In this document: positions 2,327-36,465 of the stretch, piece after piece
Numbering within the stretch: the stretch's first letter is position 1
Layout of the letters: each line of letters begins with the position of its first letter
IMG/VR virus record: IMGVR_UViG_3300045974_000319
Location: 1-37,648 of that record
Source: a virus
DNA: 37,648 nucleotides
Reading direction: 5' to 3' (one strand)
Notes under the pieces: model-generated
Seen by the model: only the letters and a program-made list of their open reading frames with translations
Told to the model about the DNA's origin: nothing
Databases searched by the model: none
Translations under genes and position numbers: made by a program

Positions 2327-3946
2327 ATGGCCGATCCATTCGCACCTGGCGCCCACGTTGTCGCCTATCTGCGCGATTCAGGCCATGAAGATCAGGAAGC
2401 CTCCGTCGATCAACAGGAAAGCCAGATCCGCGAGTTCTGCCTGGCCAATGGGCTTATCTTAACAACCGTATACGCCGATGCTGCCGCACCAGGTTCCTCC
2501 ACCATCGGCCGCGACCGCTTCCTGGAGATGATCCACCACTTCCGCTCTCCGGAGTGCAAAGATGCAGGCGTCATCGTCTGGAAGTTCAGCAGGTTTGCCA
2601 GGTCGATCGACGATTCGCAGTTTTACAAAGCCGATCTGCGCCGCCGTGGCTACACCATTCATTCCCTGCATGACCAGGTACCCGATGGTCTGGACGGCAG
2701 GTTTTTCGAATCGGCTGTCGACTGGATGAACGCCAGGTATCTCGAAGACATGTCTGCCGATGTCATCCGCGGGCAGCATCACCTCATTGAACAGCACGGC
2801 GCCCTGGGTGGCACCCCGCCCCGAGGCTTCACCCGCGAAGAAATCACGCTGCCGCCCCACCGTGATGGCCATCCACACATCGTCCACCGCTGGATACCCA
2901 ACCCAGACCTGGCCCCGCTCGTTCTACAGGCTTTCAGCATGCGCGCCTCCGGAGCGTCTTATGCTGCAATTAATAAGGCCACCCGCCTCTATAAATCCAC
3001 GAACTGCTACGAAACATTCTTCAAAAACCAGCTCTACATTGGCATCATGCGCTTCGGTGACAAAATCATCCTGGATTATTGCGCACCCATTGTTCCCCGT
3101 GAAATCTGGGACGCGGTCCAATCCATCCAGGCCGTCAGCAAAAAAGCCGTGTCCACCAGCGCAGATCATCCCCGTCGCAAATCAACCCCCTTCCTGCTCT
3201 CCGGCCTGGTCTTCTGTGCCCAGTGCGGCAGCAGCATGGATGCGGACCTGATCCAATTCCGCTCGACGGCCAAATATCGCTACGCCTACTACACCTGCTC
3301 AGGCCGCTCCCGCCACACCTGCAGCGCGCGCAAGGTCCCGCGTGCAATCCTCGAGAACACCATTCTCGAAACCATCGCCGAAATCATCCTTGAGCCAGCC
3401 TATCTGACTGCCCTCTACGACCACCAGGTCATCCTGCGCCGCGACCAGGCCAAGACCAACCGCGTAGAGCGCAACCGTCTCAACAGCCTCCTCACCGGCA
3501 CGCGCAAACGCATCGAGAATATCACTAACCTTCTCGCTGATATGGGCACCGCGGCACGCTCCCTGACCCCCAAACTGAAAGACCTCGAAGCCGAAGAAAC
3601 ACGCATCCTCAATAGCCTCAACGACCTCGAAAAGCCCCTCTCGCCCCTGCCATCCATCGAAGAGATCCAACAGCAAGCCACGCAACTGCGCGCTACGATC
3701 GCCCTGCTTGAAAATGCAGATCAAATCTCCACTATTCTGCACGGCCTGATCAGCAGAATCACCATCTCCCTCGACGAGGACAAGACTATCCGCGGCATCC
3801 TGGAGTATTTTGAGCCCTTAAACGCATACAGGGCATCCTATGATGCCCTGTATGGTCCTAATTTTTATGTCTATACTCAGTGCCCCGGGAGGGACTCGAC
3901 CTATAGACATAAAATTCAGCTGCCCTTCTCCACATTGGTTAAATAA
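2327..3946 (+). CDS. Large serine recombinase (phage integrase)
   Basis: A 539-aa protein. The N-terminal resolvase domain (about 10-150) carries the nucleophile region YLRDS, with Ser18 as likely catalytic serine and Arg16 beside it, and the KFSRFARS helix. A recombinase domain follows (about 160-275), then a zinc ribbon (CAQC near 300 and two later Cys), then a long coiled coil (about 375-480). Enzymes of this size integrate or excise phage DNA at attP/attB without supercoiling or host factors. It follows the methyltransferase by three bases. The last 30 or so codons overlap an attP-like inverted repeat, and the stop codon abuts the stop of the convergent lysin with no base between. Confidence 0.92.
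   Translation: MADPFAPGAHVVAYLRDSGHEDQEASVDQQESQIREFCLANGLILTTVYADAAAPGSSTIGRDRFLEMIHHFRSPECKDAGVIVWKFSRFARSIDDSQFYKADLRRRGYTIHSLHDQVPDGLDGRFFESAVDWMNARYLEDMSADVIRGQHHLIEQHGALGGTPPRGFTREEITLPPHRDGHPHIVHRWIPNPDLAPLVLQAFSMRASGASYAAINKATRLYKSTNCYETFFKNQLYIGIMRFGDKIILDYCAPIVPREIWDAVQSIQAVSKKAVSTSADHPRRKSTPFLLSGLVFCAQCGSSMDADLIQFRSTAKYRYAYYTCSGRSRHTCSARKVPRAILENTILETIAEIILEPAYLTALYDHQVILRRDQAKTNRVERNRLNSLLTGTRKRIENITNLLADMGTAARSLTPKLKDLEAEETRILNSLNDLEKPLSPLPSIEEIQQQATQLRATIALLENADQISTILHGLISRITISLDEDKTIRGILEYFEPLNAYRASYDALYGPNFYVYTQCPGRDSTYRHKIQLPFSTLVK
3863..3914. other. Candidate attP within the 3' end of the serine recombinase
   Basis: TTTTATGTCTATA (3863-3875) and its exact complement (3902-3914) form 13-bp arms around a GC-rich 26-bp core, 52 bp in all, a usual attP size for serine integrases. 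On the minus strand the core reads TCGAGTCCCTCCCGGGGCAC. That matches the 3' part of a tRNA gene: T-loop, 3' T-stem CCCTC, acceptor strand CCGGGGC and discriminator A. The 5' T-stem strand is absent, so this is not a tRNA gene. Identity blocks starting at the T-loop are typical of sites that restore a tRNA on integration. Which recombinase uses it is inferred from location. Confidence 0.6.
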
Positions 3947-5287
3947 TTATTCTGACACCTCAATCACATCCGCATAGATGTCCGTGCCGTTTTTGACGGC
4001 GAAATAAGCCTTGCCCAATGAAGCCCAGACGATTGTGCCATCCGCGACAGGCGCGCCATGCAGCTCGAACTGGATGCTCGGGCAGAACGTTTTGTCGAGG
4101 ATATTCGTGGTGATCGAGGCATCCGGCGTGCAGCGTAGTTTCAGCGCGGTCGAGGTTGGCCGCACTTTTGCGAAATAATGTACCACAGGCTCCGGGATGG
4201 GTGTCGGTGTGGGTACCGGCGTCGGGTCCCCTGTAAATCCCAACCAGGCGTAATCCTCGCCGGTCGAGTGCACACTGACATTGACATCAATCGACACAGG
4301 CGCCCCTGCTGCATTCGTGATCTCCGGGATCTTGATCTGGTCTCCGCTAATCTGCAGAAACTTGACGTTCCCAAATAAATACGGCCGCCAGTCATCAGGA
4401 ATTTTCGAGAGCCAATTCACTCGGAATGCATCCAGGGTCGTGATGCCAATGCTCGATCCAAAATAATACCCCGCAGGCCAGGACTGCTTATCGCCCAAAT
4501 ACGCCAGGAATTGAACGGGTGCATACTGTTTGATGAACCAACCTGCAGAATAGTGCAAGGTTTCATCTGGCGCATCCAATGGGACCTGCGGCAGATAGCC
4601 GTGCTGCATCATCCAGGACAGTTTTTCCTTGAGCCACTTCACCCAAAACATAATCCAGAAATCCTCGACCTTATGGGCCGTCGCCGCGTTGGTGTAATAC
4701 TCGGTGTAGGATCTCCACCAGCGCTCAACATCGAGGGCAAGTCCTGCCAGCGTGCGAAATCTCACCCGCCCATCCCTCAGAGCCGTTATATCCGTCGTGT
4801 AAACCGATCCCATCGCCCACGCCCGGATGATCATCGCGATCTCGGGAATATTCCTATAGAGTGACAACATCTTCGCGTCGTTTCCGATCGGTTGGTCGAA
4901 GATGTTATTCAGGCTTGCTGTGTCATGTCCAACGTTCAGTGGCCACGCCGTATTGACGAAAAAATACCCAATCGCCGGGATGCCTATGCTCGCAGCACCA
5001 CCAATTTTCTCAGCGCACTTGCTCTCGATCCAATAATCCGGGTTGGTCGTATCGTCCACCTCGCCCAATTTGATCATTACCCCGGCGATCTTGCCTTTGA
5101 GCGCTGCCCAGTTCACCACCGGCTGATAATCGCTCATGTCGATCCAGATCGGGCGATTTGCATAATAGGTGTTTGTCCCAGATATCGCAGTTAAAGCAAG
5201 CGGTAATTTCTGTGCATCCTGCTCACGCTGCTTTGTCAGGAGATTGTGACGATAATCGAGTTCTGCCTGTCGGTTTGCGAATTGCAT
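3947..5287 (-). CDS. Endolysin, GH25-like muramidase with SH3-like tail
   Basis: A 446-aa protein. Residues 46-280 resemble GH25 (Chalaropsis-type) lysozymes: WIDMSDYQ with Asp50/Asp53, the catalytic-type LDVE (Asp186, Glu188), and a barrel-end strand with YAPVQFLAYLG. A Pro/Thr linker (about 355-370) leads to a small beta domain (about 372-446) of SH3-like character, probably for wall binding. It should cut the glycan of peptidoglycan at the end of the lytic cycle. No signal peptide is visible, so release should need a holin; the best candidate lies far upstream at 23213. AAAGGTG precedes the ATG. It is the last gene of the late operon, with no terminator visible beyond it. Confidence 0.75.
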   Translation of the reverse strand: MQFANRQAELDYRHNLLTKQREQDAQKLPLALTAISGTNTYYANRPIWIDMSDYQPVVNWAALKGKIAGVMIKLGEVDDTTNPDYWIESKCAEKIGGAASIGIPAIGYFFVNTAWPLNVGHDTASLNNIFDQPIGNDAKMLSLYRNIPEIAMIIRAWAMGSVYTTDITALRDGRVRFRTLAGLALDVERWWRSYTEYYTNAATAHKVEDFWIMFWVKWLKEKLSWMMQHGYLPQVPLDAPDETLHYSAGWFIKQYAPVQFLAYLGDKQSWPAGYYFGSSIGITTLDAFRVNWLSKIPDDWRPYLFGNVKFLQISGDQIKIPEITNAAGAPVSIDVNVSVHSTGEDYAWLGFTGDPTPVPTPTPIPEPVVHYFAKVRPTSTALKLRCTPDASITTNILDKTFCPSIQFELHGAPVADGTIVWASLGKAYFAVKNGTDIYADVIEVSE

Positions 5288-35496: not shown

Positions 35497-36441
35497 TTAT
35501 TTTCCCCTCCGCAGCTTGCCCAACTCGCCCGCTTCCACCGCTTCCGCCAGGTCCTCGCGACCCGGCTGCACGTAACGCGCGGTCGTTTCCAACTTCTCGT
35601 GACCCAGGATCTTCTGCACCTCGGTCAACGGGCGGCCAGCATCCACCATGCTCTTGGCGCAGGTATGGCGCAGCACATGGCAGCCCAGATCACTGATGCC
35701 CGTCTGGCGTGCGATCTCTTCGACCCGCTTCTGGATCCCGCGCACGCTCACCCCGGCGAAGAACGTCTCTTCATTCGTGTACGTCGAGATCGCCAGCCAA
35801 TCGCTCAGTGCTGCCCTGCAGGATGCTGACAGCGGCAATGTGCGCGTCTTGTCGCATTTTCCCCGCCGCACCACCACATCCCCCTTGCGCTCGCTCATCG
35901 TCACATCCCCATGCTGCAGGTTGGCCACTTCTTCCACGCGCAGCCCGGCGAAACGCATCAGGCTCACCATGGCCAGGTCGCGTATTGCCCGCTCGCGTTG
36001 GATCGATGTCATGGCTGCATTCACGTTGATCTCCACCTGGCGCATTACCTTGCGTTCCTCGGCTGCTTCCAACCAGCGCGGCGCCTGCTCCTGCTCGCGT
36101 TCGGCCTGCAGACATTTCTCGAAGGCAATCGGCCGCATGCCCAGCGCCCGTTCGCACCAGGTGCACAGCACGCGCAGCGTCGCCCGCCGCCGGTTCCACG
36201 TTGCCGGGCTGCACTGCTCCACCTCCACGCAGCTCGTGCGGTAATCGCGCAGATCGCGCGTGTTGAGCAGCCCAGGCTCGAAAAGCGAACCGTTTGCCCG
36301 CAGCCACCAGGCACAAAAATGCTTCAGATCCGCCTGGTATGCCTTGACTGTCCCCGCGCTGCGTTCCTCACGCAGGTAAGTCTCAAACTCACCTGCCCAA
36401 TCCAACTCCACCTTCGTCTTCTCTACTGTTTGCTGTTCCAT
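35497..36441 (-). CDS. Tyrosine recombinase (Xer/phage integrase type)
   Basis: The ATG at 36441 (AAAGGG upstream) is preferred to 36465. The 314-aa protein has an N-terminal SAM-like core-binding domain (about 15-110) and a catalytic domain with Arg in FAGLRVEEV (about 168), Lys in GKCDKTRTLPL (about 195-198), His-x-x-Arg in CHVLRHTCA (about 255-258), His in LGHEKLETTARY (about 281) and Tyr (about 290). All six catalytic residues are intact. A compact Xer-like enzyme in the early operon beside a separate serine recombinase suggests dimer resolution or a second integration activity. It follows tract B directly. Confidence 0.9.
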   Translation of the reverse strand: MEQQTVEKTKVELDWAGEFETYLREERSAGTVKAYQADLKHFCAWWLRANGSLFEPGLLNTRDLRDYRTSCVEVEQCSPATWNRRRATLRVLCTWCERALGMRPIAFEKCLQAEREQEQAPRWLEAAEERKVMRQVEINVNAAMTSIQRERAIRDLAMVSLMRFAGLRVEEVANLQHGDVTMSERKGDVVVRRGKCDKTRTLPLSASCRAALSDWLAISTYTNEETFFAGVSVRGIQKRVEEIARQTGISDLGCHVLRHTCAKSMVDAGRPLTEVQKILGHEKLETTARYVQPGREDLAEAVEAGELGKLRRGK

Positions 36442-36465
36442 CGCTACCCTTTCAACTCGTTTCAT

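Follow-up and report, generated by a model that had tools for sequence, protein, structure and literature searches.

A large serine recombinase (LSR) gene in a 37,648-bp virus record from IMG/VR (the window, by which the whole analysed stretch of DNA is meant) carries a long perfect inverted repeat close to its 3′ end, which raises the question of whether the phage attachment site lies inside the gene of its own integrase and what integration would then do to the encoded protein. An initial annotation, made without database searches, had proposed that the repeat is an attP with a tRNA 3′-end core, and that crossover there would replace the C-terminus of the enzyme with host-encoded sequence. 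Taken together, the placement of attP within the 3′ end of the LSR gene, a host tRNA-Arg(CCT) as the target and the exchange of the integrase tail are very likely.

The integrase gene and its inverted repeat

The locus comprises the following features.

2327..3946, plus strand: large serine recombinase (integrase) gene, 539 aa in the circular form, with Pfam Resolvase, Recombinase and zinc-ribbon domains
3825..3854, plus strand: perfect hairpin with 13-bp arms and a 4-nt loop in the LSR coding sequence just 5′ of attP, matched in 0/200 shuffles
3863..3914, no strand assigned: attP, perfect 13-bp inverted arms and a 26-bp core, 52 bp in total, at an equivalent position in relatives
3863..3875, plus strand: left attP arm TTTTATGTCTATA, from the inverted-repeat scan
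3879..3899, minus strand: 21-bp block identical to the 3′ end of the host tRNA-Arg(CCT), with the crossover within the block, near 3888/3889 by symmetry
3902..3914, plus strand: right attP arm TATAGACATAAAA, translated in frame as YRHK
3914..3943, plus strand: codons 530–539 past attP, encoding IQLPFSTLVK, with a predicted beta strand at 530–537; predicted to be lost from the gene on integration
3947..5287, minus strand: convergent lysin-like gene across attP, a homologue of which adjoins attR in an integrated relative (tblastn)

The integrase contains the domains PF00239, PF07508 and PF13408, its fold matches are the Bxb1, SPbeta, phiC31 and A118 integrases, and the long helices at residues 357–435 of its AlphaFold model correspond to the coiled-coil C-terminal part expected from the LSR domain order. 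The structural alignments mostly reach approximately residue 504, short of the strand in the tail. Residues R16, S18, R62, R89 and R92 are invariant across 40 homologues, and of these S18, assigned by motif, is taken to be the catalytic nucleophile. As for the neighbouring elements, the lysin role of the 3947–5287 product is a guess without support from a Pfam match, and the hairpin at 3825–3854 might represent an mRNA 3′-end element that stays with the LSR gene after integration. The window also encodes a DNA methylase (797–2323, N6_N4_Mtase domain) fused to a C-terminal part resembling Mrr/NACHT-associated endonuclease domains, and an Xer-like tyrosine recombinase (35497–36465) that is likewise found in many, not all, of the LSR phages; Virus Rctr41k has a xerD-annotated gene.

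The inverted repeat stands out within the window. A scan for perfect arms of at least 12 bp with gaps of at most 60 returned three inverted repeats in the whole 37.6 kb, the others being tight hairpins with gaps of 4 and 6, and the palindrome score was matched by none of 100 shuffles of the 3863–3914 region. Serine integrase attP sites are described as 42–69 bp long, with perfect inverted arms separated by 20 bp or more and located next to the integrase gene (PMC4068962), a design with which the 13-26-13 arrangement and its spacer CTCAGTGCCCCGGGAGGGACTCGACC agree. The site occupies codons 513–530 of the 539-codon gene, and the first two elements of the initial reading, the perfect 13-bp arms around a 26-bp core at 3863–3914 and their location in the last codons of the recombinase, were both upheld. 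The accompanying claim that the intact site indicates an excised, circular form was upheld in part: since the ends of the record overlap by 300 bp with 99.3% identity, the genome is circular or circularly permuted, and a free circle cannot be distinguished from a packaged concatemer.

Relatives, integrated copies and the host tRNA

With the window LSR as the sole query, no relatives were found in the viral or genome collections. They were reached through a terminase-linked phage (L002/L079), whose LSR is 39% identical to that of the window, and then by alignment-based searches, which yielded approximately 45 viral records and seven loci from assembled genomes; for six of the seven, the title gives Anaerolineae-type or Chloroflexota bacteria. 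In LSR relatives of 30–55% identity a site built alike lies at the corresponding point of the gene, and in 20 or more diverged relatives the equivalent position is occupied by a palindrome with arms that are different but self-matching, such as CTGTGCCTATAT, TTTATGCCTACG, GAATTTGTGTCTAT, ACTATGGATAT and CTAACGCAAC. Arms that vary between phages yet remain self-complementary are what would be expected for a symmetric protein-binding site, as inferred from the sequences. For 16 free-form relatives the palindrome reaches 1/100 or better in a shuffle test, and others are clear by eye. The automatic search chose terminator hairpins in L085 and L146, where the sites were instead placed by eye, and weak palindromes (L088, L092 and a few others) were left out of the counts.

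Separate hairpins are also present around the site in many of these genes. A hairpin 5′ of the site within the LSR coding sequence is seen in the window, L118, L138, L147 and L148, a terminator-like hairpin 3′ of the site, often over the stop codon, in L079, L085, L096, L103, L113, L127, L128, L130, L133, L137, L140 and L146, and hairpins on both sides are seldom found (L125). In phages with a terminator-like hairpin after the site, integration would also part the integrase from its terminator.

The clearest view of an integrated copy comes from an Anaerolinea metagenome-assembled genome (G002), in which an LSR 55% identical to that of the window (L097) continues into the antisense strand of a tRNA-Arg(CCT) and ends in CPRRDSNSQPKR before its stop codon. 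The provirus is approximately 51.4 kb long (junctions 51.35 kb apart), is bounded by a 22-bp direct repeat ATGCCCCAGGAGGGACTCGAAC of the tRNA-Arg(CCT) 3′ end, and encodes homologues of the window TerL (63%), TerS (63%), primase (67%) and Xer-like protein (57%, all by tblastn). Its lysin-like gene lies beside attR and its LSR beside attL, which is the order expected if the window circle opens at 3863–3914. A second LSR (L098) likewise runs into the antisense strand of tRNA-Arg(CCT), and in both L097 and L098 the tRNA is intact at attL, as required for restoration of the target; the LSR tail of a third (L106) also enters an antisense tRNA-Arg(CCT), with the contig ending inside the tRNA. In these relatives the site, its target, the junctions and the tail exchange are shown by their sequences. 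Not all members of the family use this tRNA: L129 adjoins a complete tRNA-Glu(CTC), with the LSR frame stopping just short of it, L110 ends in an apparent tRNA-Glu(TTC), read by eye only, and others sit intergenically, e.g. L089 near a gene reading as pfkA. The crossover can be seen independently in two very similar phages, one free (L087) and one integrated (L100): directly after the shared core, L100 has other sequence where L087 has its perfect 16-bp right arm.

In the window itself, no tRNA gene was found when it was scanned for them. The match of the attP core to the tRNA was initially taken to cover all 26 bp, and this was confirmed only in part: on the minus strand 21 bp agree (AGTGCCCCGGGAGGGACTCGA, 3879–3899), spanning the T-loop from the second T, the 3′ side of the T-stem, the 3′ strand of the acceptor and the discriminator with one to two downstream bases, and the outer core bases CTC and CC are unlike the tRNA. 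Among 400 genomes of the order to which G002 belongs, 12 contain this core at 20–21 bp identity; in 11 of them ARAGORN identifies it within a tRNA-Arg(CCT), and in the twelfth only tRNA-derived repeats were seen. A search with a 19-base core in a separate sample of 396 genomes of the class gave no matches, and an integrated copy of the window phage itself was not found in the searches. Jointly with the attP site and the tail exchange, it is very likely that the attB of the window phage is the 3′ end of tRNA-Arg(CCT), with the caveat that the host is inferred and recombination has not been tested.

The proposal of a serine recombinase attP with a tRNA 3′-end target thus held, specifically for tRNA-Arg(CCT), and the suggestion that such a pairing is unusual is to be softened, as it is uncommon but common to several members of this family. 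Two observations that would have refuted the proposal, attachment sites located elsewhere in relatives or the lack of a host tRNA with this block, were looked for and neither was made.

In L159 (G003 C50, ~25.9–26.1 kb), L157 (~1040–1140) and L176/L178, the 3′ end of tRNA-Arg(CCT) also recurs as short repeats interrupted by a small hairpin, which sits between TCGA and CTCTCAACC; in one genome such repeats form tandem units of approximately 69 bp, in which an att-like arm is present as well. Their appearance is that of scars or arrays that have remained at the tRNA.

The exchanged C-terminus

The window's own junction is a prediction. When the left half of the window is joined in silico to a core-bearing tRNA-Arg(CCT), the LSR changes from 539 aa, ending in STYRHKIQLPFSTLVK, to 530 aa, ending in YVYTQCPGRDSNSQPKR (tail CPGRDSNSQPKR), with the stop codon falling over the anticodon region of the tRNA. 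The predicted ending matches the one observed in L097, and across the family the free forms have ends of the YRHKIQLPF type versus CPRRDSNSQP in the integrated relatives. The tails were compared across phages and never for one phage with tRNA-Arg in both states. The claim that the C-terminus is replaced by host-encoded sequence therefore held in integrated relatives, where the new codons come from the antisense strand of the tRNA.

Several lines of evidence bear on the part of the protein that is lost. First, the integrase frame is open across 22 of 24 accepted free-form sites, compared with 42–58% for the other frames of the same DNA; the count includes L085 and L146, and owing to shared ancestry the sites are not 24 independent trials. 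Next, the right arm is translated as YRH in many members and followed by an alternating hydrophobic stretch (IQLPF, IQFPF, FTISF, IEFEF etc.), and the right-arm YRH frame is common to the window and L079, although their left arms are read in different frames. In an AlphaFold model built with 40 homologues, the att-encoded residues 500–527 are disordered (pLDDT ~36) and residues 530–537 are predicted to form a beta strand (pLDDT ~92); a homologue of 33% identity gives a similar picture with lower confidence (strand 528–537), the two predictions sharing most of the alignment and being not fully independent. Finally, the differences between the tails of the closely related pair L127 and L146 are mostly in the third codon position (2/4/11 for the three positions; 8 synonymous and 4 non-synonymous codons), and the L133 and L135 tails are without a clear third-position excess. 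Because of the open frame, the YRH and hydrophobic pattern, the predicted strand and the third-position differences in L127/L146, the lost tail is likely to be meaningful, a judgement that rests on sequence patterns and a predicted structure. The tail is not essential in all members, since in L083 and L087 a stop codon lies within the site.

In the mechanism that we propose, a temperate phage of Anaerolineae (Chloroflexota) would carry attP within the 3′ end of its own LSR gene, and two LSR dimers would pair the 52-bp attP with attB at the 3′ end of the host tRNA-Arg(CCT), with crossover inside the shared 21-bp core. Integration would rebuild an intact tRNA on the integrase side and make the reading frame of the integrase continue on the antisense strand of this tRNA, from which the residues RDSNSQPKR and, over the anticodon region, a stop codon would be read. 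The free phage would produce a 539-aa enzyme ending in the beta strand (IQLPFSTL) encoded past attP, the prophage would produce a 530-aa enzyme without the strand, and excision would restore the long form.

Whether the exchange has consequences for activity can be addressed only by inference. By way of background, serine integrases are one-way enzymes, the direction of which is set by a separate directionality factor. The control of LSR directionality lies near the coiled coil, with the C-terminus of the Listeria (LI) enzyme close by, and fusion of a directionality factor to the LSR C-terminus changes the direction of the reaction (PMC5737554), which makes it reasonable to connect the terminal strand with directionality. 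The tail-less enzyme cannot be dead, as the prophage form must still excise. It is conceivable that the free form is biased to integration and the prophage form to RDF-dependent excision or quiescence, and the most economical regulatory reading, itself tentative, would be that the presence of the strand promotes integration and the loss of it promotes excision or a silent state. A bolder reading, possible and equally untested, would have the C-terminal swap act as a built-in directionality switch, with the terminal strand needed for or favouring attP × attB integration and the antisense-tRNA peptide that replaces it locking the prophage LSR out of re-integration or priming it for excision. If such a switch were real, the state of the phage DNA would be written into the integrase protein. 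The initial suggestion that the swap switches or tunes excision accordingly stays an inference without activity data.

Alternative explanations and known systems

The most serious rival does not dispute the attP; it disputes the switch, and holds that the site merely abuts the integrase gene, the frame being open by chance and the two tails equivalent. In its favour are the members that stop inside the site (L083 and L087), the requirement that the tail-less form work in excision, and the phiC31 integrase, the final 21 residues of which, beyond its last known strand, are dispensable (PMC5737554). Against it stand the frame open in 22 of 24 sites versus about half for the other frames, the strand-like hydrophobic pattern that many members show beyond the right arm, the confidently predicted strand that recurs in a distant member, and the YRH frame kept between the window and L079 though the left-arm frame differs. 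Such a passive overlap is rated as somewhat less likely than not, and it cannot be set aside.

A second possibility is that the integrase is the Xer-like tyrosine recombinase, acting on the tRNA 3′ end as tyrosine enzymes usually do. Such targets are indeed typical of tyrosine enzymes, and the gene is present in the window and most relatives. However, attP sits inside the LSR gene, a long way from the Xer gene. Its 52-bp palindrome and spacer of more than 20 bp follow the serine attP design (PMC4068962) and not that of a tyrosine core site, and 6 of the 18 records with an LSR and an att site have no Phage_integrase match, five of these being 36–39 kb long, although records may be incomplete. 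This explanation is very unlikely. An RNA element such as a terminator or regulatory hairpin, suggested by a palindrome near a gene end, is all but excluded by AT-rich arms 26 nt apart without a U-run, by Rfam matches at the site that are at chance level only, by the separate hairpins before or after the site in relatives, and by the provirus junction falling at the site where relatives are integrated; the attL/attR junctions in G002 contradict the terminator reading, which was rejected.

The preferred reading, an attP within the integrase gene with a tail exchanged on integration, has several practical consequences. An integrase C-terminus edited by integration in a natural family allows a direct test of the part of the tail in direction, palindromes within LSR genes can reveal complete attP sites, and the family offers many ready-made attP/attB pairs, including tRNA-targeting ones, from barely characterised Chloroflexota phages.

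Known systems share individual elements of this arrangement. In the archaeal "suicidal" SSV-type tyrosine integrases, too, attP lies in the integrase gene and integration changes that gene (PMC8371274), but there a tyrosine recombinase gene is split in two and inactivated, which does not apply to the window LSR, a serine enzyme in which only the last residues change and the catalytic protein remains whole. In the integration-dependent immunity of mycobacteriophage BPs, attP likewise lies in a coding sequence, a C-terminal segment is removed, and free and prophage isoforms exist (PMC4557955). That protein is, however, a repressor with a degradation-tag tail, whereas here attP is in the integrase gene, and the removed tail is a predicted strand of unknown role without a recognised degradation tag. 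In the Streptomyces phage SV1 and other serine integrase systems attP is found upstream or downstream of the gene (PMC4068962), in contrast to its position inside the gene here.

A close counterpart is provided by the streptococcal ICEs with a single serine integrase inserted in rumA, the C-terminus of which is exchanged on integration (PMC4701971). This was the only earlier report related to an attP inside a phage serine integrase gene found in the literature searched, with most subscription journals outside the search. As in the present family, the att site lies in the 3′ part of the serine integrase gene and the integrated copy encodes a different C-terminus. The ICE target is, however, a protein gene, and both products change, whereas here the element is a phage and the tRNA target is rebuilt; the antisense strand of the tRNA encodes the new tail here, and the relevant section of the ICE report gives no structural role for the tail. 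The C-terminal exchange of a serine integrase on integration is thus already known as a bare principle (PMC4701971), and what is new, within the literature searched, is a phage LSR family with the attP-in-gene layout throughout, a host tRNA as the target, with its antisense strand encoding the new tail, and a predicted strand past attP.
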